Source of the DNA: a virus
IMG/VR virus record: IMGVR_UViG_3300023061_000286
Coordinates: 1-43,725 of that record
DNA length: 43,725 nucleotides
Direction: 5' to 3' (one strand)
Under the pieces are notes generated by a model. The model was given only the letters and a program-made list of their open reading frames with translations. It had not been told where the DNA came from and ran no database searches. Each line of letters opens with the position of its first letter. The first letter of the stretch is position 1. Below, piece by piece: positions 10,150-38,382 of the stretch. Position numbers and translations under genes: made by a program.

Positions 10150-10701
10150 ATGTCCAATACAAACTGTACAAATGTTGATAGCTGTTATAGCTGTGATAGC
10201 TGTGATAGCTGTTATAGCTGTCGTAGCTGTTATAGCTGTAGTAGCTGTGATAGCTGTCGTAGCTGTCGTAGCTGTCGTAGCTGTAGTAGCTGTGATAGCT
10301 GTCGTAGCTGTCGTAGCTGTCGTAGCTGTGAATGCGTTAACTTTGCATTATTCTGCCATAAAATAGAATGTAAAAAAGATTACCTATTCAACAAGCAAGT
10401 AACTCACGAAAGATACATCGAAGTTCGAAATAAATACTTAGAATTATGCGGAGATTGGGAGCCAAGGCGAGCCAATGGAAATGAACTCTACAAAGAAGCT
10501 GGATGTAATTGGCAAGAAGTAGACATGAATAAATTTACAGCAATTGGCGAAGTCATTAATTACTTGAAGGGATTAGAAGAATTTAACGAAAAAATATTCA
10601 AAGAAATAACAGGGGTTGACGCGAGCAAAAAAGAAGAAGAATTAACTATTGAAGAAGTATGTAAGGAACTTGGAAGAACCATAAAAATAAAAAAATCCTA
10701 A
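10150..10701 (+). CDS. cysteine-triplet-repeat protein
   Basis: A 183-aa protein. Residues 10-60 are 17 uninterrupted triplets xSC (x = Asp, Tyr, Arg or Ser), placing a cysteine every third residue. They are followed by ECVNFALFCHKIECKKDY and a C-terminal domain with NKQVTHERYIEV, FTAIGEVINYLKGL and EELTIEEVCKELGRTIKI. The C-terminal part matches my memory of phage proteins with Cys-rich N-terminal repeats and an FNK-VT-ERY domain, none of known function. The Cys array could bind metal clusters or form a regular extended or beta-helical rod. Confidence 0.8.
   Translation: MSNTNCTNVDSCYSCDSCDSCYSCRSCYSCSSCDSCRSCRSCRSCSSCDSCRSCRSCRSCECVNFALFCHKIECKKDYLFNKQVTHERYIEVRNKYLELCGDWEPRRANGNELYKEAGCNWQEVDMNKFTAIGEVINYLKGLEEFNEKIFKEITGVDASKKEEELTIEEVCKELGRTIKIKKS
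10177..10329 (+). repeat. 17 tandem 9-bp coding repeats
   Basis: The unit is NNNAGCTGT (AGC serine and TGT cysteine invariant; first codon GAT, TAT, CGT or AGT). Uniform codons show recent expansion. Replication slippage would add or remove whole triplets without changing frame. Confidence 0.9.
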
Positions 10702-14799: not shown

Positions 14800-14840
14800 C
14801 CAAACATGAAGAAAGACCATGTTTGGAATTTATTTTTTAT
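14800..14840 (+). terminator. hairpin with T-rich tail
   Basis: CCAAACATG (14800-14808) pairs perfectly with CATGTTTGG (14818-14826); loop of nine bases; followed by AATTTATTTTTTATTT. It is a good candidate for an intrinsic terminator between the small-gene cassettes and the lipoprotein gene. Confidence 0.65.
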
Positions 14841-14858
14841 TTCTTAATTCATAATTTT

Positions 14859-15230
14859 ATGAAGAAGTTACTTACCGTCGCAATCGCGGCAATCATTTTG
14901 GCAGGGTGCGCACCATCTTGTTATGATATAGCAAAAGAACAATGTGGATCAGATGGAGTTGAAAGTGCAAATGGACCAAGTAAAAGCTGTAATATTATTT
15001 GTGCCAAATCAAGCGAGGTCGAACGCGGGAGTTATCTTGATGATGAAAGCAACCGGGCAACGTGTTACGGTGGAAATGTTATGTTTGAAACGTTTGAATG
15101 TAGTGATGTTCAAGAATGGGGAACCTCATGTAAAGAATATACTCCAGTAGCAATAGAATCAGAGGGGATCGTAGCGCACTTCACTTGTGCTCAATGGACG
15201 GAAATGTTAAAACAGTATCAAGTAAACTAA
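14859..15230 (+). CDS. phage lipoprotein
   Basis: A 123-aa protein. MKKLLTVAIAAIILAGC is a textbook lipoprotein signal with lipobox LAGC, so cysteine 17 should be lipid-modified after export. The mature part has eight or more cysteines (such as SCYDIAKEQC, SCNIIC, TCYGG, FTCAQW), suggesting several disulfides outside the cytoplasm. Starting at ATG 14859 removes an unlikely 12-residue extension from 14823. Phage lipoproteins of this size include superinfection-exclusion proteins; that role is inference. Confidence 0.75.
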   Translation: MKKLLTVAIAAIILAGCAPSCYDIAKEQCGSDGVESANGPSKSCNIICAKSSEVERGSYLDDESNRATCYGGNVMFETFECSDVQEWGTSCKEYTPVAIESEGIVAHFTCAQWTEMLKQYQVN

Positions 15231-15254: not shown

Positions 15255-15509
15255 ATGAATAACTCAAAGTATCCGCTAATTATAGCGATCATAGCTCTTT
15301 TAATTGCTTCCGTTGGAGCATACAGGGCTTTCAAAGTTGATCCGGTTCGGATTGGCGCAAAACAAATCTGCGATGCTTACGTGCAAGGTAGTCAGTACGG
15401 AGCGCAGGCGCAGGGGGAACTTATTAATCAAGAACTTAAAAAACAGATTGATAGCGGGGAGATTATTTTGAAGGAAGATCAAGCCAAAAAGGCTGAATCA
15501 AAAGAATAA
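15255..15509 (+). CDS. single-pass membrane protein
   Basis: An 84-aa protein with one membrane helix (residues 7-22, PLIIAIIALLIASVGAY), then GAKQICDAYVQGSQYGAQ and a charged helical end. The start lies nine bases after TTATTTTTTAATT. Together with the lipoprotein just upstream it may form an envelope-located pair. Confidence 0.65.
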   Translation: MNNSKYPLIIAIIALLIASVGAYRAFKVDPVRIGAKQICDAYVQGSQYGAQAQGELINQELKKQIDSGEIILKEDQAKKAESKE

Positions 15510-16641: not shown

Positions 16642-18258
16642 ATGACACCTATAAAACCAAGGGACATTCTATTCAAGGACGAAATGCGCGCAAAGTTAAG
16701 TGAGGGCGCTAAAAAAATATATGACGTTGTAAGAATAACAATGGGGGCCAAAGGCCGTAATGTTATCTTTGACCAGGAGAACGATGATCCTTTCATTTTA
16801 AATGATGGAGTTCGTTGTGCCAGGGAGGTCCTTCTGGCCGATAAATGGGAAAGGCTTTCAGCATCCCTTATTCGACAGGCATCCGAGAAAACAAATAGAA
16901 ACGCCGGGGATGGTACGTCCCTTACAATTGTTCTTGCTTACGCAATTCTGATCGAAGGACTAAAAAATATTAAAGAAGGTTTCAATCCAATGGTTCTTAA
17001 AAACGAAATCCAAGAAGCTGCGAAAGAGGTAGTAAAACTAATTAATGAGGTAGCTGTACCGGTTAAAGAAGCTGATCAGATCAGAGATATTGCTACGGTA
17101 TCCAGCCAGTCAGAAGAAATTGGTGAGTCTATCAGTGAGATTGTGAAAAAAGTTGGTAGAGATATGCCAATAACAGTTGAACGCGGTGGGCCTCCGGGGA
17201 TCAGTAATAAGATTATTGATGGTATGCAGTTCGAGAAGGGGTACATCAGCCCGGGGTTTATTACGGACCCCACTAAAATGAGGTTCGACAGACAGGAATG
17301 CCTTATAGCGATCATTGATAAGCGCCTTTCCACAAAAGAAGATGTAATTCCCATTCTTCGCCCGCTAATAAACCAAGCTAAGAACGGAGCTATCGAGTTC
17401 ATAAACCTTGTGATTGTAGCCACCGACCTTGAATCAGAAGCATTTGCTATTCTGGCACAGAATCACATTAAAGGATTACTTGAAATTCAGAACCTTAAAA
17501 TCCCTATTTCTATTTGTTGTGTTAACCCGATGCACTACGGCCAATTAAAGATTGACTTCATGCAGGACCTGGCACTTACTACTGGGGCCTCTTGCTACAG
17601 TGAGGAGGACGCACTAAACCTAAAAAACTTCAAATACGAAGATTTCGGATCTGCTGATCGCGTTCTGGTTGATATGTTCAACACGACTATCATCGGAGGC
17701 AATGGAAACAAGGAGAAGGTTGAGAAAAGAATTCAAGAAGTAGCTGCCTTAAGGGAGCAGGCAGAGGATGAAAACTCGGAAGATATTTTTGACCGGAGAA
17801 TCTCCATGTTAAAAGGTGGAGTTGGTATGTTATTAGTTTCAGCGAAAACTAAGAATGAGGATGATGAATTAATGCTCAGAGTAGAGGATGCAGTATTAGC
17901 TACAAAATCAGCGATCTCAGAGGGTGTAGTAACTGGCGGGGGTAAGACGCTCTATAATATCTCAAAGTCTCCCATAGGGGCAAAAAACACCACTGGCGTT
18001 AAAGTTATTGCCGATGCCCTTGAGTATCCAATTAAACAGATCATTGAAAATGCAGGAGGAACTGTTGAAGAGGAAATGTCAACAATAGTTATGGCCGGTT
18101 TGGATGATGGGTACAACGTGCTGAATGGAGAAATTGAAAACTTAAAAGAAAAGGGTATTATAGACCCAGCTAAGGTATTAAGAGAGGCGATTGAAAATGC
18201 TTCAAGTATTGCTTCAATGTTATTAACCACTGAATGCGCCCTAACTTATGCAGAATGA
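16642..18258 (+). CDS. groEL: phage chaperonin GroEL
   Basis: A 538-aa group I chaperonin. ATPase residues are conserved: GAKGRNV (35-41), D55 in LNDGVR (E. coli D52), GDGTS with D90 (D87), and D416 in RVEDAVLATKSA (D398), followed by GVVTGGG. The apical substrate-binding region is diverged: Y201 in GYISPGF is kept, but the usual PGFGDRR segment is replaced by NPMHYGQ, and E. coli Y203 is Gly. The GGM tail is missing. With groES it makes a self-contained folding machine, likely for capsid or fibre proteins. It overlaps the next gene by 11 nt. Confidence 0.95.
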   Translation: MTPIKPRDILFKDEMRAKLSEGAKKIYDVVRITMGAKGRNVIFDQENDDPFILNDGVRCAREVLLADKWERLSASLIRQASEKTNRNAGDGTSLTIVLAYAILIEGLKNIKEGFNPMVLKNEIQEAAKEVVKLINEVAVPVKEADQIRDIATVSSQSEEIGESISEIVKKVGRDMPITVERGGPPGISNKIIDGMQFEKGYISPGFITDPTKMRFDRQECLIAIIDKRLSTKEDVIPILRPLINQAKNGAIEFINLVIVATDLESEAFAILAQNHIKGLLEIQNLKIPISICCVNPMHYGQLKIDFMQDLALTTGASCYSEEDALNLKNFKYEDFGSADRVLVDMFNTTIIGGNGNKEKVEKRIQEVAALREQAEDENSEDIFDRRISMLKGGVGMLLVSAKTKNEDDELMLRVEDAVLATKSAISEGVVTGGGKTLYNISKSPIGAKNTTGVKVIADALEYPIKQIIENAGGTVEEEMSTIVMAGLDDGYNVLNGEIENLKEKGIIDPAKVLREAIENASSIASMLLTTECALTYAE

Positions 18259-26739: not shown

Positions 26740-29109
26740 TTAGCCATAAAAACTACAGATAGCCTGTCCATCTGTGCTGTCTGTGGTTACCCTAATAGTG
26801 GAACCAGAAAATGCTACGTTCGTATATTTTTCATTATTTATATTCCCAACTTCTTGAAATTTTGCTTGTATGTTTCCGTTTCTACGTATTGTCACTTGTC
26901 CTATACCATTTATTCCAATTGCAACTATTGGTGATTGCATTTCACAGATAGCTTTTTCAGTACCAGTTGGATAGTTATATATTTCATCTTTAACTACAGC
27001 CCTAGTGCCCAAAAAGCAAAGACCCTTTAGATCAATTAACAATTTTGTTGCTGACAAAGCCTTACCTACAATCCTACTATATGTCCCTGGCGTAGTAGAA
27101 ATTTCACCAGATGTGTTAGAAAGCCAATAGGTTTCTCCGGGGGTTAATCCAGTTGTAGTCAAAACCGCTCCAGATGTTAAAATTGGGCTCGTATCTGCTG
27201 CATCACCTCCTGTGGCCAAAAATCCCGACATCATTCTTCCAGACTGGGCGTAAGAAGATGTGGACTTATAAATCTTTCCATCGTTCTTCATGTACACAAT
27301 ATTGTCTAAATACGGGAAAAGACCTCCAGCATCTTCAAGAGAAGCAACACCGGTGCCACCACCAAAACCTGTACTAAGTCTTAAGCCATTTTCTATAAAA
27401 TATTTTGAATCATCACTGTCCATTATCATACTTATTGTCACCCATCCAGCCGATGCAATTGAAGAAGACCCCATACTTGTAAAAGTATATGCTGCCTGAC
27501 TATTCCATGTAATTGTACTTGCATCCCATGAATCTTTTATTATATATGCCGTAGCAATATTCCCAGATCTCGCTGTTTCATTTCTAAAAACAAAATCAGC
27601 ACTTATTACCTCTATTAATTCACCAGCATTAAGTCCTAATTCTGCTTCTAAATCCCATGAAAAATAAGAATATTTTTTATTTGAACTTTGGTTACCAATA
27701 AGTAATGGATCAGTCGAGGAGTAATTTGTTGTCGGATTTGTCTCATCAACATAGGTATCCGTATCAGCATCTATCGTAGAACCATGAGCCACATATTTCC
27801 CGAAAGAAATTGCCTCTCCGGCAGCTATCGTTTCTCCGAGTTCAAATACACCAATCGTATCAGAGCCTCCTAGCTTAAGATTCGTCTGTATGTTCATCGT
27901 CTCCACATCATCCGCGTAAATTTTTCCACCTAGAGTCGCTCTAAAAGGAGCTGTGGCACGATTGGCAAAGTTGGCCCCAGCCCAGATAGCGATATCGGTA
28001 GAAGCATTCCCAGAATTTAATCCCGCTAAATTTGCCCCAGATCCAACCGCAATATGAGCAGCGTTTGCTGCACCTGAAACCAATGTTAAATTAGTGGCCG
28101 AAATAGAAGCGGCCCCTATACTAAAAGCCCCTATCGTAGCACTACCGGCTCCTATAGAACCAGCCGTAATCGTACCCAAATTAGCTGTAATTGCTGAAAG
28201 CTGGCTGACGTTCATCTCCGTGGCCGTAATCGTGTTTGCGGCTATCTCTGTAGCTGTGATAGTCCCGGCCGCTATCTCTGTAGCTGTGATAGTACCAACG
28301 GCTATCTCGGTTGCCGTAATCGTATTCGCAACAATCTCATTAGCCGTGATTGTATTGGCTGCAATTGAATCAGCAGTAAACAGTTTGTTAAAGCCTCCGG
28401 AACCACCAAACACTTGATACTCAGCATCCTTACCAGCCACGACATTTTCTGCTACGGCTATCAAAATCTTTCCGGACCCAACCGCATCGGATGGAGTTGT
28501 AGAAATCTGTAAAACAGTAATCGAAATGGCTGTATCGAGATAGATATAAGTTCTAGCTGATATATCCCCGGTATTCCCGGAATTTATTATGTAAGTCGTA
28601 CCATCCAAAAGCGTGATCGTTCCACTTGTCCATGCGACAGTATCCTCGTCCGTTGCACTGAAGGCCATATCTTGTTGCCAGCCCTGAATTGCAATCTCTG
28701 TGCCTGCTTGTAAGCCGTTTAAAATAACATTGGTGGTAAATTCAGCATGTTTACCCTTAACATAACCAGTAGGAAGAACATAAAAATTTGCATTTTCAAT
28801 ATCAGCATTTCTATCGGCAACATTACAACCTGCCCACTGAACACCAGTATTATCAACGTGCCATGAATTAGCAGAAGTTTTATCCGGGATATGAATAGAC
28901 CCGGCAACAAATTCCTCAATATAAGAAAGAACCCAATCCTTACCATCGAATATCTTAAAAATCAAAGTAGTCGGGTCAAACCACCCTTGTCCTTTTCTTG
29001 GCACCCTCGGCTCATCTATGGATACGATAATATTCTCAAGGGTTAGCTTAAGATTATCAAAGTCGCGCCTTACCGCAGCCGAATTGGAAAGAGAGGGTGT
29101 ATCACTCAC
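26740..29109 (-). CDS. tail fibre with TITATEIA repeats and a DNRLRE/CBM96-like domain
   Basis: A 789-aa protein. Residues 20-60 (VPRKGQGWFDPTTLIFKIFDG) look like the tail-attachment part. Residues about 245-310 repeat TITATEIA, typical of trimeric fibre shafts. About residues 425-530 resemble a DNRLRE/CBM96 carbohydrate-binding domain: DTYVDETNPTTNYSS, LLIGNQ, YFSWDL, then WDASTITWNSQ. The end has GLTPGETYWLSNTSGEIS, a common fibre-tip motif. It should contact the host receptor, perhaps a glycan. It overlaps the nozzle gene by 8 nt. Confidence 0.8.
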   Translation of the reverse strand: MSDTPSLSNSAAVRRDFDNLKLTLENIIVSIDEPRVPRKGQGWFDPTTLIFKIFDGKDWVLSYIEEFVAGSIHIPDKTSANSWHVDNTGVQWAGCNVADRNADIENANFYVLPTGYVKGKHAEFTTNVILNGLQAGTEIAIQGWQQDMAFSATDEDTVAWTSGTITLLDGTTYIINSGNTGDISARTYIYLDTAISITVLQISTTPSDAVGSGKILIAVAENVVAGKDAEYQVFGGSGGFNKLFTADSIAANTITANEIVANTITATEIAVGTITATEIAAGTITATEIAANTITATEMNVSQLSAITANLGTITAGSIGAGSATIGAFSIGAASISATNLTLVSGAANAAHIAVGSGANLAGLNSGNASTDIAIWAGANFANRATAPFRATLGGKIYADDVETMNIQTNLKLGGSDTIGVFELGETIAAGEAISFGKYVAHGSTIDADTDTYVDETNPTTNYSSTDPLLIGNQSSNKKYSYFSWDLEAELGLNAGELIEVISADFVFRNETARSGNIATAYIIKDSWDASTITWNSQAAYTFTSMGSSSIASAGWVTISMIMDSDDSKYFIENGLRLSTGFGGGTGVASLEDAGGLFPYLDNIVYMKNDGKIYKSTSSYAQSGRMMSGFLATGGDAADTSPILTSGAVLTTTGLTPGETYWLSNTSGEISTTPGTYSRIVGKALSATKLLIDLKGLCFLGTRAVVKDEIYNYPTGTEKAICEMQSPIVAIGINGIGQVTIRRNGNIQAKFQEVGNINNEKYTNVAFSGSTIRVTTDSTDGQAICSFYG

Positions 29110-31156: not shown

Positions 31157-31813
31157 TTAGGGATTAGACCAAGTAAACCTTGAGCGCCTTTCTGACTCAG
31201 CATCACCGAAAGATTCTTCCTCATTGAACGTAATAAATTCTGAAATATATTCCTGTAAACGAGCAGTATAAAGCTGAAGAGCGTTACCGGCATCACTCCA
31301 CCTTCTTTTATCCTGGTAATATTGATACTGGGACCATAACAAACCAATTCTCTGGCCATCTTCATCCGGAACATCTATTTCTTCACCACTTGTACCATCA
31401 AGATCATCTGATAATGCTACATAGTAAACGTAAATATTCTCAGAAAGAAGCGGCTTAATACCAATCTGTCGACCATGACCAGCAGCAGAAGTTCTACCTT
31501 TAAAATACCAGTAGATAGGAGTTCCACCACCGATATCGTCTGTGAGCGTGTTACGCTTCCTTAGAGGCAGTGTAACCTCATTTGAGTCTTGTACTTCCAT
31601 CATGTACAGAAAATCGCTAGGAAGGGCTCCTATGCCGCTTGTAAGCGAAATCGTTGTTTTAACACTTTCAAAGAACGTTGGGTGTTGCTGAACAATATCT
31701 CTTCTTACTTTATGATAACCGATATTAGCATACTTACCCTGGTTGGATGCACTAACGGAAGAATCGTCCACCATTCTTATTAGCTCTGATTTTAAATCTG
31801 TAAATTCTAGCAT
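31157..31813 (-). CDS. head-tail adaptor protein
   Basis: A 218-aa protein: helical start (FTDLKSELIRMVDDSSV, NIGYHKVRRDIVQQHP), then the beta phrase GIGALPSDFLYMMEVQ, then PIYWYFKGR and IYVYYVALSDDL, and a C-terminal helical part. The LPSDF strand after an N-terminal helical bundle is characteristic of podovirus/siphovirus adaptors (gp11 / tail-tubular-A-like). It is encoded 6 bp before the nozzle. Confidence 0.7.
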   Translation of the reverse strand: MLEFTDLKSELIRMVDDSSVSASNQGKYANIGYHKVRRDIVQQHPTFFESVKTTISLTSGIGALPSDFLYMMEVQDSNEVTLPLRKRNTLTDDIGGGTPIYWYFKGRTSAAGHGRQIGIKPLLSENIYVYYVALSDDLDGTSGEEIDVPDEDGQRIGLLWSQYQYYQDKRRWSDAGNALQLYTARLQEYISEFITFNEEESFGDAESERRSRFTWSNP

Positions 31814-31820
31814 TATTAAA

Positions 31821-32117
31821 TTAGTTTTTACGTTTTAATAACTCCTTAATATCTCCCGCCATTTCCAATTGACCATTTTTTAATTCACCAATATCTTCTT
31901 TTAATTCTATATATTGCATTTTAAGAACTGGAACGACTTCAATTTTTTTCTCAATAGAAATAATTGACAGCTTATTATCTCCAATATCTTTTTCATTGGC
32001 CAAAACTTTTGATTCCCAATTACCGGCCAGGCGCCCGGTAGCTAGAGCCCATACTACCAATGCAATTAAAGTCGCAATACCAATATGGATTGAGTAATCT
32101 TTTAAAGTTTTGATCAT
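31821..32117 (-). CDS. membrane-anchored coiled-coil protein (spanin-like)
   Basis: A 98-aa protein with one N-terminal membrane helix (residues 12-28, IGIATLIALVVWALATG) and a coiled-coil remainder (LSIISIEKKIEVVPVLKMQYIELKEDI by heptads). This is the layout of Rz-type inner spanins. It overlaps the holin-like gene by 4 nt. No Rz1-like partner is visible inside it. Confidence 0.55.
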   Translation of the reverse strand: MIKTLKDYSIHIGIATLIALVVWALATGRLAGNWESKVLANEKDIGDNKLSIISIEKKIEVVPVLKMQYIELKEDIGELKNGQLEMAGDIKELLKRKN

Positions 32118-32320
32118 GATCCTGAATTTAATTTTTTAGTAATCTCATTAAGGACATAAATTACAAAAACGGACACACCTTCACCTAATTGAAGGTCCGG
32201 TAAAATATCTGTCAAATAACCTGTAAACAAAAGTAATGATGCTAGCCCAAATCTCCAATAGAAAGATTTAGCCCTCTTTCCGGTGAAGATCGTTTTAAAA
32301 ATGAATGTTAGAGTTTCCAT
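32114..32320 (-). CDS. holin-like membrane protein
   Basis: A 68-aa protein with two hydrophobic segments (WRFGLASLLLFTGYLTDIL and GVSVFVIYVLNEI) and a basic N-terminal part (TGKRAKS), ending polar. Small size, two helices and a spanin-like neighbour suggest a holin. No sequence family can be named. Confidence 0.5.
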   Translation of the reverse strand: METLTFIFKTIFTGKRAKSFYWRFGLASLLLFTGYLTDILPDLQLGEGVSVFVIYVLNEITKKLNSGS

Positions 32321-32330
32321 AACAAATAAG

Positions 32331-32711
32331 TTATTGAAGTAATTTTATAATTTCCTGACGCAGTTCTTTTTTAGTCATTGGCCCATTTATTTTAATCTTT
32401 TTTTCTTTTGTTTCTTTTTTCACTACAGCGTCTAAAATTGGCAAATTATTTACATCGAAATCATACCCCTTCTCCTTGTCGTTAAAATCTTCTAGCAATC
32501 CAGATTTTACCAGAGAATATTCTTCGACAGATAAGCAGTAACGTTCACTCTTAATATCAAGAGCACTTTTTCCTACTAAACATTCTTTCTCTACTACCTC
32601 AGGCTCTTGATCAATTGTTAATGGAGCGCCGTATGAAACTATCGACAAACTAATAACAGCTATGGTAGCAGAAACCCCTAAGCCTATGAGAATTGATTTG
32701 TAATTTGGCAT
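32331..32711 (-). CDS. membrane-anchored or exported hypothetical protein
   Basis: A 126-aa protein. N-terminal hydrophobic helix at residues 6-27 (ILIGLGVSATIAVISLSIV), then an acidic extracytoplasmic-type domain with two cysteines (ECLVGKSALDIKSERYCLS) that may pair, and a charged helix at the end. No known family. It belongs to a run of late genes with export signals. Confidence 0.6.
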   Translation of the reverse strand: MPNYKSILIGLGVSATIAVISLSIVSYGAPLTIDQEPEVVEKECLVGKSALDIKSERYCLSVEEYSLVKSGLLEDFNDKEKGYDFDVNNLPILDAVVKKETKEKKIKINGPMTKKELRQEIIKLLQ

Positions 32712-32712
32712 A

Positions 32713-32811
32713 TTAAAGACGGTTTGTGTTAACTGGAATTATTTGAGCTTGTGTTCCCGTTGGGGAAGCTTCGACTAGAGCGTCCGTTGCATCATCTGTC
32801 TGACTTTGCAT
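32713..32811 (-). CDS. possible 32-aa overlapping peptide
   Basis: ATG 32811 lies inside the preceding gene's end in another frame and reads MQSQTDDATDALVEASPTG to TAA at 32713. It may be a small gene or the shifted end of its neighbour. No motif decides. Confidence 0.3.
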   Translation of the reverse strand: MQSQTDDATDALVEASPTGTQAQIIPVNTNRL

Positions 32812-32980
32812 AAACAGCCCCAGAATCAGCAATAGGAGTAGGAGTGGTTATTTCAGATAAGAAAAGAACGCCATTTGTTGCAGCTTCACCCAATCCTTGT
32901 CCAAGTTGAACTGCATAAGCGGCAGTCGTAATAATCGCAAATAAAACGATTGCCGATAATGTTTTTAGAAATTTATTCAT
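32792..32980 (-). CDS. short Sec-signal protein with fibre-like segment
   Basis: A 62-aa protein. MNKFLKTLSAIVLFAIITTAAYA is a clear Sec signal with an AYA cleavage site. The mature part (ATNGVLFLSEITTPTP, GAVYAKSD) resembles the repeated unit found in phage fibre tips, where it normally continues with a Leu-Tyr-Phe strand. It stops abruptly, so it may be a truncated relative of the large gene upstream. Confidence 0.6.
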   Translation of the reverse strand: MNKFLKTLSAIVLFAIITTAAYAVQLGQGLGEAATNGVLFLSEITTPTPIADSGAVYAKSDR

Positions 32981-33002
32981 AGATAGTTTTAGTTAGATTA
33001 TT

Positions 33003-35912
33003 TTAATTATCGCTACGAGAACGTTCATACCAATTATCATCCCCGGAATCGTATTGGAGAGTGATTGTGTCCCCAAGCCCTAAAGTAAAATCATTTCCAC
33101 CAGAAAGCTGTAATCCAGTATTCGCCAATTGGGCTTCATCTTGAAGTTTAACTGTATTTGTATCATTGGTACCCTGAATAGTAACAATGGTTCCATCGCT
33201 AGCTGGATCAACGATTGTTGGTGTTCCGGTTAATGTAACCGCGCCACCGTTACCAACAACGCGCATATTCTCGTTTGTGACAGTGATTTGGGTAGCTGCC
33301 AATAGGGAGGTATCCCCTGATGGTTCAACCACAAGAATTTGGTTTATTTCAAATTCATCATCGCTTGTTACTGTGGCGATTGCTGTAGTTCCGTCTTGTT
33401 CAGCGAAGATCACATTACCATCAGCACCACCACCGGATTGAGTTCCTCCATAAAGTACAACATCACCACCGGCTTGAGCTGAACCACCAGTGATAGCATC
33501 CCCACCAATCATATGCACATCAAATCCATCACCGGGAGCCACTGCTATTGCTGTTATTTTATTATCTCCTGCTACTGAACCGAAATCAAAATCCCAATCA
33601 TCAGAAGTATGAAGTGAGCCAAACGCAACCGTAGATTCTGAACCGCCATTGTCTACATAATCAGCAATATAACCTGTAATATAAGTAGAAGCTGCATCGC
33701 TTGCGTGTCCCTCTACTGTAGCTGAATATGAAGACATCAAGTTTCCTGCGGTGGTCAACCCCGTGGAGTGTGTATCGTTTAACTGTGTTGTTCCAGCGGT
33801 TACATTGCCGCCGTAATAAGCTGTATTAATCAAAGCTCTAGTTCCACCCGCTGAAGGTGCACCACTGCCACCGTGATTAAATGCTACTGTATCGGTAGTA
33901 GGAGTTGTTAATTCGTTCACAACAACCTTTCCAAGTTCGCTTACAGTAAACACATCATTAGCCCCAGAAGTTGCTTTGAAGTGATAAATCTCATCCGCCC
34001 CAGTAGTGTCAGTCAAAGTCATCTTTGACCAGTTGTTTACATAAACATCTGAACCACCAGCCACATTTGGATCGTTGATTGTTCTTTCTGTTATAAAGCC
34101 AAAACTTTCAGTTTGAGTGTTTGTAATTGCCTGTGGTCTAACCGCTACACCATTATTTTTAATCGCTACTGCTGAACCTGATGCTCCAAGATGAGGAGCG
34201 CCGGAAAGTACCAAGTTACTATCATATGTAATCGATCCCCATACGTTATTTGTCACATCGGGGTCTTCGGTTACACCGGAAGCAATAACAAGCGTATTTG
34301 TTGACTGTGCCGCTATTTTATAATTATTTGTGGTTGAACCATTATCAAACAATATCATCTTACCAGTTGTATCTGATGAAACTCTTAAAGTCTTAACGTC
34401 CTGGGAAGTGCTTAGTGAAATGGCACCTGATGTTGCTCCTGTATTACCAAGCACAAAGTTTCGATTATCGTCCATCTGGAGTGTGCTGCTAAATGTAGCT
34501 GCTGCTGTAAATTGTACTTGTGAACTTGTTGCTAATCCTTGCACATTGAATGCTTCTCTAAGAGTTCCTCCACCAACTATTTCAAACTTTAATTTACCAT
34601 CAAGGTCTGAATTGTCTGGATCTTTAATCTCTGCCGTAAATCTTCCGTAGTTTTTTCTTGCTCCCAAATCATCATTACTATCAAATGTCATTACCATGAT
34701 GTCGTCATCTGCCGCTGGAGACGCTGTGTCTTTGAAGAAAGTTAAAGTCGCACCTACCGCATCATCGGTCTCTTTTAAAATCGTAATATCCCCTAGCGAC
34801 CCACCACCACCCAATGAGAGTGAACCAGTTGTGGCTATATTTGCACTTCCAAAATTCCACGTTCCGGCAGGATCATTGAAAATAATATCCCCTTCATGTC
34901 CACGGTAATCAGCAGTGGTTACAACGACGTTTGAAGCATCGGCCAAATCATAACCATAATCAACCGTGGCCGCGCGCACCGCGAAGGCAGAGCCGGCAGC
35001 TTTTGGATAAAGAACCACTCCGTTTGTTAATTTCTGATCTGTACTTGAATGTGTATGCAATGAAGCGATTGAGCTTTCACCGCCACTAGCCATCGCGGAA
35101 AGCTGTTTGTAAAAAATAGCCAGTCCGGTATTTTCACCACCATCATGATCTACCGTAGCATCCGCATCATAATTTTTAACAGTCAAACCAGCGGTGGTGC
35201 CGGTATATGTAGCACCGGCCCCGAGTGTTGTTTTAATTAAATGTCCGGCACTTGCCCCAGCGGGAAGGTCAGTTGAATCTCCAATACTAAGTTCAGAACT
35301 AGCGATTACACCTTCCGTAAGAGTAAAATTCGGAGCAGTAATATCAGCTCCGGATCCAGCATTTGTAATCTCAAAAACACCCTGCGTATCAGTAGCATTG
35401 ACTTGGGCGAACGTAGCCAGCTTGGCCGATCCAACCTCAGCCAAATTTCTAGTCACCCATAAACCATAGCCATCGGCAATATCTTGTTCGATTTTTGCAC
35501 CATATTTTCCAAGTATAGATAAAGCATCCGTAGCAGTACCCTGCGAATCAATAACGACAGCATTCGGATTATTGGTGACATCATTCATGGTTACGGTGAT
35601 ACCAGTCTGATTATCACCATCGGCAACCGTAATATTTATATTACCAACATTATCAATATCATACCCGTCCATATCAAAATCACTGAATGCCGTACCACCG
35701 AATGTAAAAAGCCCGGAAACATTTAAGTCAACAGTTTCCATATTCGCCCATCCAGTAAGTTCATCACGCGCAGAGGCCGGAACTAAATCCGTTAACCCGC
35801 TAGGCTTAACAAATTGAGCAGAATTTAAACCACCCCCAGAAACACCAGCCAAAGCAAAGTTTGGTAAGAGTAAAATTAATGTTAGTAAGGAATAAAAGAA
35901 TTTTTTAAACAT
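33003..35912 (-). CDS. large fibre-like protein with Sec signal peptide
   Basis: A 969-aa protein. MFKKFFYSLLTLILLLPNFALA is a standard signal peptide with ALA cleavage. The mature part starts GVSGGGLNSAQFVKPSGL, then a very long Gly/Thr/Ser/Ala-rich, beta-rich, repetitive region. The end, LGDTITLQYDSGDDNWYERSRSDN without its last residues, matches the closing motif of many phage appendage proteins. It looks like a virion fibre, yet it carries an export signal, which ordinary virion proteins lack. It could be assembled in the periplasm or displayed on the host surface. Confidence 0.7.
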   Translation of the reverse strand: MFKKFFYSLLTLILLLPNFALAGVSGGGLNSAQFVKPSGLTDLVPASARDELTGWANMETVDLNVSGLFTFGGTAFSDFDMDGYDIDNVGNINITVADGDNQTGITVTMNDVTNNPNAVVIDSQGTATDALSILGKYGAKIEQDIADGYGLWVTRNLAEVGSAKLATFAQVNATDTQGVFEITNAGSGADITAPNFTLTEGVIASSELSIGDSTDLPAGASAGHLIKTTLGAGATYTGTTAGLTVKNYDADATVDHDGGENTGLAIFYKQLSAMASGGESSIASLHTHSSTDQKLTNGVVLYPKAAGSAFAVRAATVDYGYDLADASNVVVTTADYRGHEGDIIFNDPAGTWNFGSANIATTGSLSLGGGGSLGDITILKETDDAVGATLTFFKDTASPAADDDIMVMTFDSNDDLGARKNYGRFTAEIKDPDNSDLDGKLKFEIVGGGTLREAFNVQGLATSSQVQFTAAATFSSTLQMDDNRNFVLGNTGATSGAISLSTSQDVKTLRVSSDTTGKMILFDNGSTTNNYKIAAQSTNTLVIASGVTEDPDVTNNVWGSITYDSNLVLSGAPHLGASGSAVAIKNNGVAVRPQAITNTQTESFGFITERTINDPNVAGGSDVYVNNWSKMTLTDTTGADEIYHFKATSGANDVFTVSELGKVVVNELTTPTTDTVAFNHGGSGAPSAGGTRALINTAYYGGNVTAGTTQLNDTHSTGLTTAGNLMSSYSATVEGHASDAASTYITGYIADYVDNGGSESTVAFGSLHTSDDWDFDFGSVAGDNKITAIAVAPGDGFDVHMIGGDAITGGSAQAGGDVVLYGGTQSGGGADGNVIFAEQDGTTAIATVTSDDEFEINQILVVEPSGDTSLLAATQITVTNENMRVVGNGGAVTLTGTPTIVDPASDGTIVTIQGTNDTNTVKLQDEAQLANTGLQLSGGNDFTLGLGDTITLQYDSGDDNWYERSRSDN

Positions 35913-35931
35913 AATATTTCAAATTATAAAA

Positions 35932-36393
35932 TTATTGGCACAAAAACGTTACTCCATCACCATTTATTTCTGAGTCGATATAAATATTTGCCAAATCACC
36001 TGAGTGGGCAAAGTGATACGCATTAGCAGGCAGTATTAAAACACCCTGCCGAGTAGCAGGATCCTCAACGACAGTAGATCCACCAATAACAATATCACCT
36101 GTATTATCCTCTTCCGCCTGGATGCTACATTCATCGAAAGTAGTAGCAGTGGCGGCAAGCGCGACAGCGGTTCCGGCAGTTGTTACAACCTTTCTTCCAT
36201 CAGTATAAGTGACAGAAGATGGCGCGACACTGGAGGTGGATACTCGAACAGCAACCTTACCGGTGGCGAGTTCAACGAATTTATCATACTCGCGCTGATT
36301 AATGTCCATTGGCAGGGCAGCATAAGCGATACTACTAAAAATAACCGCAAATAAAGCGGCGAAAGCGAATACTGAGAAGGTATATTTTTTCAT
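35932..36393 (-). CDS. small beta-sandwich virion-type protein with Sec signal
   Basis: A 153-aa protein. MKKYTFSVFAFAALFAVIFSSIAYA is a signal peptide with AYA cleavage. The mature part has VTTAGTAVALAATATTFDECSI, NTGDIVIGGS and LANIYIDSEINGDGVTF, a phrase set common in small phage head- or tail-associated proteins (strand, TGxIxVGGS, then IYxDxxxxGxGV). It again combines a virion-like domain with an export signal. Confidence 0.65.
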   Translation of the reverse strand: MKKYTFSVFAFAALFAVIFSSIAYAALPMDINQREYDKFVELATGKVAVRVSTSSVAPSSVTYTDGRKVVTTAGTAVALAATATTFDECSIQAEEDNTGDIVIGGSTVVEDPATRQGVLILPANAYHFAHSGDLANIYIDSEINGDGVTFLCQ

Positions 36394-37173: not shown

Positions 37174-38382
37174 TTAAGATACAGTTTTGTTTGTAAGAGC
37201 TGAAGAAGAACGAGGATTGAAACATACCAGATTCCCCATTCCGATCAAAGCAGCTTGATACTGAGTAGAGACACCTTGTCCAGTAGAAGCAGGAAGGATT
37301 TTCATGATTCCTTCACCTTCATTAAGCCAACTGATAGGTTCAAGTTGAGCCATTTTGAAATCTTGTTCTGTAAGACAATACATTTCAGTAAGAGGAAGGT
37401 GATAGTTGATAGCCATTGGAATTTCTCGGCTACCAGCAGCAACAGCAAGACCAGACCATCCACCAGTAAGAGAGATAGAATTAACTACTCTTTTAAGAGA
37501 TGTAAGGTATCCAGCATATTTGTTCTGAAGATCTTGAGAAGTAACAATGAAATTAGGTGATCCAAAACGATCAGCCATTTGCACCATTGTAGTAACGTGA
37601 TTCATTTGAAGAGTAGCGGCTGTGTTTTCTACATAAGAAGTAGTCCATCCAGCACCAGCGCGAGTAACACCCTGCCACGCAGAAGTGTAATCAGTATTGT
37701 CAATCAAACCAGCAATACCCATAATTTCATAAAAGGTAGTAGTAGTGTGACAGTTTTTACGAACAACTCGATCATCAACAGCTACGGTCAAAGAAGAAAT
37801 AGTAGCTTGGTTGTTGAAATAATCAACATCAGTAGTAGTAGAACTATCAGCAGATCCACCAGTGATATTAGATTTTGTGTCAATCTCATATTCTTCATCT
37901 AGCACAAGTCCGTGAGCGTTATCTACAGTAAGAGTAGTAACAGTCCCAGCAGTTGCAACGTAAGTAATTACACCTTCACCAAAAGTAGTCATTTGGCGAT
38001 CTAAATCTTTAGCAAGTTGACTCATAGCCTCTTCACCGTATTGAGATACAAGAGATGCAAGAGAGCCAGGCTGTCCTTTACAAGCCTTCATAGCTTGCCA
38101 TGTTAGTTTATGAGAAGCTACATAAGTCTTAGCAGCTACATTCATTTGGTCGTAGGTAGGAGCACCAGAAGCAACATCGCCACCTTCGGCTTGTGTTGAA
38201 ACTCCGGCATGTGCACCTACTACAGAAGAGAAATAAATTGTGTTGTTGTTGAACCGTACTTTTTTCCCACTCTGAGAGAAACGATCAAAGAGCATTGTTT
38301 CTTTAGGAAGGAAATTGCGGATTTGAGGAAGAATGTCTTTTTCCAAAATATCCGCTACGGCTGATAAAGTTCCGTCGGCCAT
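37174..38382 (-). CDS. major capsid protein (HK97-type)
   Basis: A 402-aa protein. The start, SAVADILEKDILPQIRNFL, and FDRFSQSGKKVRFNNNTIYF match the N-arm and E-loop region of HK97-type capsid proteins. EIMGIAGLIDNT, GSPNFIVTSQDL and the C-terminal QYQAALIGMGNLVCFNPRSSS follow in the usual order. An inserted beta region lies near residues 140-210. Position after the scaffold supports the call. It is a plausible client of the phage GroEL. Confidence 0.85.
   Translation of the reverse strand: MADGTLSAVADILEKDILPQIRNFLPKETMLFDRFSQSGKKVRFNNNTIYFSSVVGAHAGVSTQAEGGDVASGAPTYDQMNVAAKTYVASHKLTWQAMKACKGQPGSLASLVSQYGEEAMSQLAKDLDRQMTTFGEGVITYVATAGTVTTLTVDNAHGLVLDEEYEIDTKSNITGGSADSSTTTDVDYFNNQATISSLTVAVDDRVVRKNCHTTTTFYEIMGIAGLIDNTDYTSAWQGVTRAGAGWTTSYVENTAATLQMNHVTTMVQMADRFGSPNFIVTSQDLQNKYAGYLTSLKRVVNSISLTGGWSGLAVAAGSREIPMAINYHLPLTEMYCLTEQDFKMAQLEPISWLNEGEGIMKILPASTGQGVSTQYQAALIGMGNLVCFNPRSSSALTNKTVS

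Follow-up and report, generated by a model that had tools for sequence, protein, structure and literature searches.

Three adjacent late genes of an uncultured tailed phage encode proteins whose N-termini, judged by sequence, are genuine Sec/SPI signal peptides, and the claim that this phage exports its fibres rests on the one of them that is clearly fibre-like, a protein of 969 aa. Tailed phages are taught to assemble entirely in the cytoplasm. Cultured marine phages with the same type of signal on fibres detected by MS/MS suggest, however, that some phages send fibres out of the cytoplasm. The observation is more general than this single phage, and a mechanism of export and late attachment is plausible.

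Genomic setting

The stretch of DNA analysed here (the window) is an IMG/VR virus record of 43,725 bases from an uncultured tailed phage. A near-identical contig bridges its end and its start with one base between them, and the window is therefore probably a complete genome, permuted or circular. Searches with TerL and the capsid protein recovered only this near-identical contig and one distant contig that has TerL alone in common. The genes are podovirus-like (TerL, portal, capsid, GroEL, SU10-type adaptor, and an NlpC/P60 tail protein), and both the order TerL-portal-scaffold-capsid-adaptor and the SU10_adaptor domain are shared with the SU10-like podoviruses (Kuravirus); however, none of the SU10 structural proteins examined has a signal (0/15), whereas in the window phage signal-bearing genes are placed between capsid and adaptor. 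The gene leaders in the window look Bacteroidota-like.

All features located below are on the minus strand. The three signal-peptide ORFs are on the strand of the capsid genes, just downstream of these and before the adaptor gene. Neither the major capsid protein (37174-38382; phrog_14242, 7.3e-28) nor the SU10-type head-tail adaptor (31157-31813; PF24175, 4.7e-08) has a signal peptide. Their neighbours include a 98-aa protein with an N-terminal membrane anchor, possibly related to lysis (31821-32117; no significant family match), a 68-aa small membrane protein, possibly holin-like (32114-32320; hydrophobic segment seen by eye, no family match), and a 126-aa protein (32331-32711) for which the N-terminal anchor previously described was recovered as a hydrophobic segment at about residues 7-30, with no convincing cleavage site. 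A tail-fibre-like protein of 789 aa (26740-29109), which has PHROG tail/virion matches and a CBM96 domain (PF24517), lacks a signal peptide and provides an internal contrast.

Signal peptides in the window

The preliminary description had assigned clear signal peptides with AxA cleavage sites to three late proteins, and the predictor agreed in all three cases: the 153-aa protein (35932-36393), the 969-aa protein (33003-35912) and the 62-aa protein (32792-32980). In the 153-aa protein, which lies downstream of the capsid genes, the signal occupies residues 1-25 (36319-36393; MKKYTFSVFAFAALFAVIFSSIAYA^ALP, site AYA^A), in the 969-aa protein residues 1-22 (35847-35912; MFKKFFYSLLTLILLLPNFALA^GVS, site ALA^G), and in the 62-aa protein residues 1-23 (32912-32980; MNKFLKTLSAIVLFAIITTAAYA^VQL, site AYA^V). 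Each begins with a K-rich n-region that leads into a hydrophobic core and an AxA site, has no transmembrane segment further on, and is thus of the Sec/SPI type. These calls come from a rule-based predictor, not SignalP, applied to 58 ORFs of the window; apart from a single lipoprotein-like ORF, its remaining positives were small proteins with a transmembrane segment or an anchor. No signal was predicted in the portal, scaffold, capsid, adaptor, nozzle-like, NlpC/P60 tail, 1291-aa or 789-aa fibre genes. Among control virion proteins of P22, SU10, crAss001, phi14:2 and phi18:1 the predictor gave 0 positives in 70, which argues that three adjacent positives in the window are not due to chance. 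Shuffled N-termini of the signal proteins were still called in 4-15% of cases, reflecting the hydrophobic composition of these N-termini.

Wrongly chosen start codons were considered as a source of these signals and rejected, because the starts of the signal ORFs in the window directly adjoin the upstream genes; an AGGAGG upstream of a signal start in another phage (L044, below) and the signal codons of Cellulophaga phages, which evolve as protein, also speak against them.

The fibre-like protein and its relatives

The 969-aa protein has no Pfam family, only a weak PHROG match of unknown function, no sequence relative among isolate phages, and only chance matches to solved structures; that it is fibre-like is seen from its homologues, which are themselves predictions. 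Its C-terminal fibre-type domain (about residues 885-969; 33006-33260) has matches in two other phages, with 45% identity over residues 885-966 to a signal-bearing fibre-like protein of L044 and 52% identity of the C-terminus to a fibre-like ORF of L043, and a protein of the lineage L041 ends similarly (...SRSVN). A central domain (residues 216-359; 34836-35267) is shared by at least six further lineages of uncultured phages, with 46-60% identity to L005, L006, L007, L011 and L017 and 58% to L041, whereas the bacterial genomes scanned yielded no relative. AlphaFold returned a pLDDT of 37 for this shared domain with six sequences. In L017 the domain follows a phage cement domain (PF09956) in the same protein, and this fusion argues for a virion role of the central domain. 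It had been proposed to search homologous phages for the same signal: the carriers in L005, L006, L011 and L041 do begin with a signal peptide, with Q at +1, but those in L007 and L017 have none.

In L044, a phage with a contractile tail and ordinary Shine-Dalgarno starts, the baseplate genes are followed directly by three fibre-like genes with signals (AWA^A, AFA^G and VFA^K) and then by a lysozyme; an AGGAGG lies close upstream of the first of these three starts. These signals do not have the Bacteroidota pattern, indicating that the feature is not confined to Bacteroidota-type signals. Lysis-type genes often adjoin signal-bearing fibres, namely an M15 peptidase-like ORF (by sequence) in L006, lysozyme in L044, and small transmembrane genes in the window.

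The other two signal proteins are less informative. For the 153-aa protein, searches of families and of phages, isolates included, gave no match, and its mature form was modelled by AlphaFold with a pLDDT of 31. The 62-aa protein ends in a short fibre-like motif, EITTPTPIADSGAVY, which precedes a probable frame change; RNA folding at this frame change was not significant (z -0.34). Of the earlier statements that the proteins are virion-type and that two of them have fibre-type domains, both are borne out for the 969-aa protein by its C-terminus and the matches of its central domain, whereas the 62-aa protein has only the short motif and the 153-aa protein no family match, and to call these two virion proteins is a guess.

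Signal-bearing appendages of cultured Cellulophaga phages

In Cellulophaga phages, proteins annotated as virion proteins from MS/MS carry signals (phi10:1 gp091-094, phi18:3 gp085-087, phi39:1 gp26 and phi19:1 gp101-103), although the virion status is that given in the records and exported proteins that stick to particles could have co-purified; further signals were seen by eye in phi39:1 gp25 and phi19:1 gp104. Across phi10:1, phi18:3, phi39:1 and phi19:1 the signals occur on distal fibre, spike and pectate-lyase genes and on none of the capsid, portal and adaptor genes. The statement that tailed-phage structural proteins are normally cytoplasmic therefore agrees with the core proteins, none of which has a signal in any phage tested, whereas the distal appendages of these four phages depart from it.

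By hand count, 26 of the 27 signals in Cellulophaga phages have a Q immediately after the cleavage site, in agreement with the Q-rule described for SPI substrates of Bacteroidetes (PMC5837995). The window departs from this rule, its +1 residues being A, G and V. To judge from their codons, the Cellulophaga-phage signals are under purifying selection: in the lyase signal pS is 0.28 and pN 0, with all eight variable codons synonymous (8/8), and in the fibre signal pS is 0.16 and pN, at 0.04, about one fourth as high.

Annotation places the phages with these appendage modules in the Assiduviridae, Pachyviridae and Duneviridae, and phi19:1 and phi19:3, which infect one host strain, have a three-gene block in common with 98-99% protein identity. 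In phi46:3, gp081 combines a fibre-type signal with a lyase body that is 92% identical to phi19:1 gp102, so that the signal was apparently replaced and not lost. Sequence comparison thus indicates that appendage modules are exchanged between unrelated phage families with retention of the signal. This is not a habit of all phages of such hosts, an idea ruled out by the Bacteroidota phages crAss001, phi14:2 and phi18:1, in which no virion protein has a signal, and likewise by FCL-2, in which the predictor positives were small transmembrane or lysis-type ORFs only.

The Cellulophaga modules (phi10:1 gp091-095, phi18:3 gp085-087, phi19:1/phi19:3, phi46:3, Nekkels, Ingeline and phi39:1) resemble the genes of the window in that large late proteins of fibre or spike type, with Sec/SPI signals, are encoded one after another, but differ in their Q-rule signals and in the pectate-lyase annotation, which is absent from the window, and in blastp and phmmer comparisons no window protein matched any of the Cellulophaga phage ORFs included. 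These phages, not being sequence relatives, support the phenomenon but not the virion membership of the 969-aa protein. The open-licence literature yielded no account of virion fibres with signal peptides, and the paper on North Sea flavophages does not mention signal peptides (PMC8776804).

Proposed export and late attachment

For the window phage, we infer that the signal-bearing proteins are exported, cleaved and folded in the periplasm, and that they belong to the virion, which they would join at or after lysis. The 969-aa protein above all, with the other signal proteins, would be a virion appendage made as a Sec precursor that crosses the inner membrane late in infection. Signal peptidase I would remove the signal, and the fibres might then fold in the periplasm while capsids are filled in the cytoplasm; once lysis opens the envelope, the finished fibres would meet the released particles and attach to them. 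We give this account, of fibres exported by Sec, trimmed by SPI and joined to virions at or after lysis, an even chance of being right. Export of the fibres, with attachment outside or after lysis, had been suggested as one possibility in the preliminary description, and the signal-bearing distal fibres and spikes annotated by MS/MS as virion proteins in Cellulophaga phages speak for it; for the window phage it is an extrapolation. P22 tailspikes and T4 long tail fibres can be added in vitro to finished particles, so late joining is feasible, although these proteins are cytoplasmic and have no signal peptides (0/11 in P22 by the predictor). The frequent nearness of lysis-type genes to signal-bearing fibres fits attachment at or after lysis. 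Counting against the account are the signal-free carriers of the central domain in L007 and L017, the many phages whose virion proteins bear no signal, and the departure of the window from the Q-rule despite its Bacteroidota-like leaders.

A wider form of this account, which we offer more tentatively, is that assembly is split: heads and tails would be made in the cytoplasm, whereas adhesins and depolymerising spikes would pass through Sec, be trimmed (and pyroglutamate-capped in Bacteroidota hosts), and be fitted at or after lysis. Since fitting would take place outside the cytoplasm, the appendage modules could be interchangeable, and perhaps even shared goods between unrelated phages in one host.

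The signal-bearing proteins may alternatively, as the preliminary description also considered, stay outside the virion, coating the envelope or remaining in the periplasm, where they would block superinfection or keep virions near the cell. Phages are known to export exclusion proteins (T5 Llp and similar), and the window phage already has a separate, signal-free fibre (26740-29109). Phages of P. gingivalis encode Q-rule signal-peptide proteins of unknown function that are thought to modify the host surface (PMC10367356); like those of the window they are phage-encoded Sec substrates, theirs being adapted to the host signal peptidase, but they are not fibre-like and are read as modifiers of the host envelope (PMC10367356). 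For ORF22 of the Thermobifida (T. fusca) phage P1312, a protein of 1096 aa with a signal peptide and a CBM, export and prevention of superinfection have been proposed (PMC4569894); it is, like the 969-aa protein, a large phage protein with a signal peptide, to which it adds a carbohydrate-binding domain, but it differs in combining a phosphatase with the CBM, in its Gram-positive host, and in a proposed action at the cell wall (PMC4569894). Against such a role stand the MS/MS annotation of the Cellulophaga counterparts as virion proteins, the late position of the genes beside the capsid genes, which fits structural expression better than early exclusion, and the 969-aa protein itself, in which no outer-membrane anchor was noticed (type IX secretion domains were outside this check). 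We therefore consider a non-virion role unlikely, though it deserves serious attention.

An N-terminus left uncleaved could serve as a tether that holds the fibre at the inner membrane, or that inserts into a membrane during infection or lysis, and the neighbouring 126-aa (32331-32711) and 98-aa (31821-32117) proteins do have uncleaved anchors; however, good AxA sites in 3/3 window proteins and the adherence of the Cellulophaga phages to the Q-rule, a mark of SPI cleavage, make this improbable. Equally doubtful is that the proteins are morons, i.e., host-type secreted adhesins or enzymes acquired by phages and without a structural role: moron/auxiliary metabolic genes is indeed the PHROGs category of the phi39:1 pectate lyase, and the modules move between unrelated phages, but the central domain has no relative in the bacterial genome collection, and phage-type domains, including the capsid-cement fusion in L017, as well as the placement after baseplate genes in L044, speak against it.

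If virion adhesins are indeed exported by their signals and fitted late, assembly would gain a late step outside the cytoplasm, the movement of spikes between unrelated phages would be explained, and phenotypic mixing of host range after co-infection would be possible. The near-identical module in phi19:1 and phi19:3 hints at appendages as shared goods within one host strain.

Gene leaders and signal peptides

A Shine-Dalgarno-like motif was found at only two of the 52 gene starts in the window, and the leaders are rich in A/T with A at positions -3, -7 and -12, in which they resemble those of Bacteroidota. Despite these Bacteroidota-like leaders, the predicted signal peptides of the phage do not obey the Q-rule (glutamine at +1 after cleavage), the +1 residues being A, G and V.

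Signal-bearing proteins also occur in other phages. In L011, another uncultured phage lineage, a protein of 319 aa (529-1488) that carries a Q-rule signal peptide is encoded near the signal-bearing fibre gene; judged by eye it is possibly lectin-like, and a family search returned no match. The Cellulophaga phages phi19:1 and phi19:3 have three appendage proteins in common (98-99% identity) and share one host strain, yet their annotated families differ. A hypothetical protein of 167 aa in Croceibacter phage P2559S (12432-12935), whose gene is flanked by structural and tail genes, has a signal-peptide-like segment at its start.

Genome organization and other genes

A near-identical 18-kb contig bridges position 43725 to position 1, which points to a probably complete genome that is either permuted or circular. 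On the minus strand, a +1 frame without a stop (32713-32796, reading DDATDALVEASPTGTQAQIIPVNTNRL) runs from the end of the 62-aa ORF to the start of the next gene, which looks like a natural or programmed frameshift; the same open frame is present in the near-identical contig, which is possibly the same genome.

In the early region, a plus-strand ORF (14823-15230) with a lipoprotein-like start when read from an internal ATG (MKKLLTVAIAAIILAGC) is followed by a small anchored protein (15255-15509), and the two may form a spanin pair. Also on the plus strand are a 183-aa ORF with a striking N-terminal repeat of SCDSCYSC units (10150-10701) and a phage-encoded GroEL (16642-18258; phrog_5725, 1.3e-116); a GroEL is also among the annotated genes of Cellulophaga phages phi38:1 and phi14:2.
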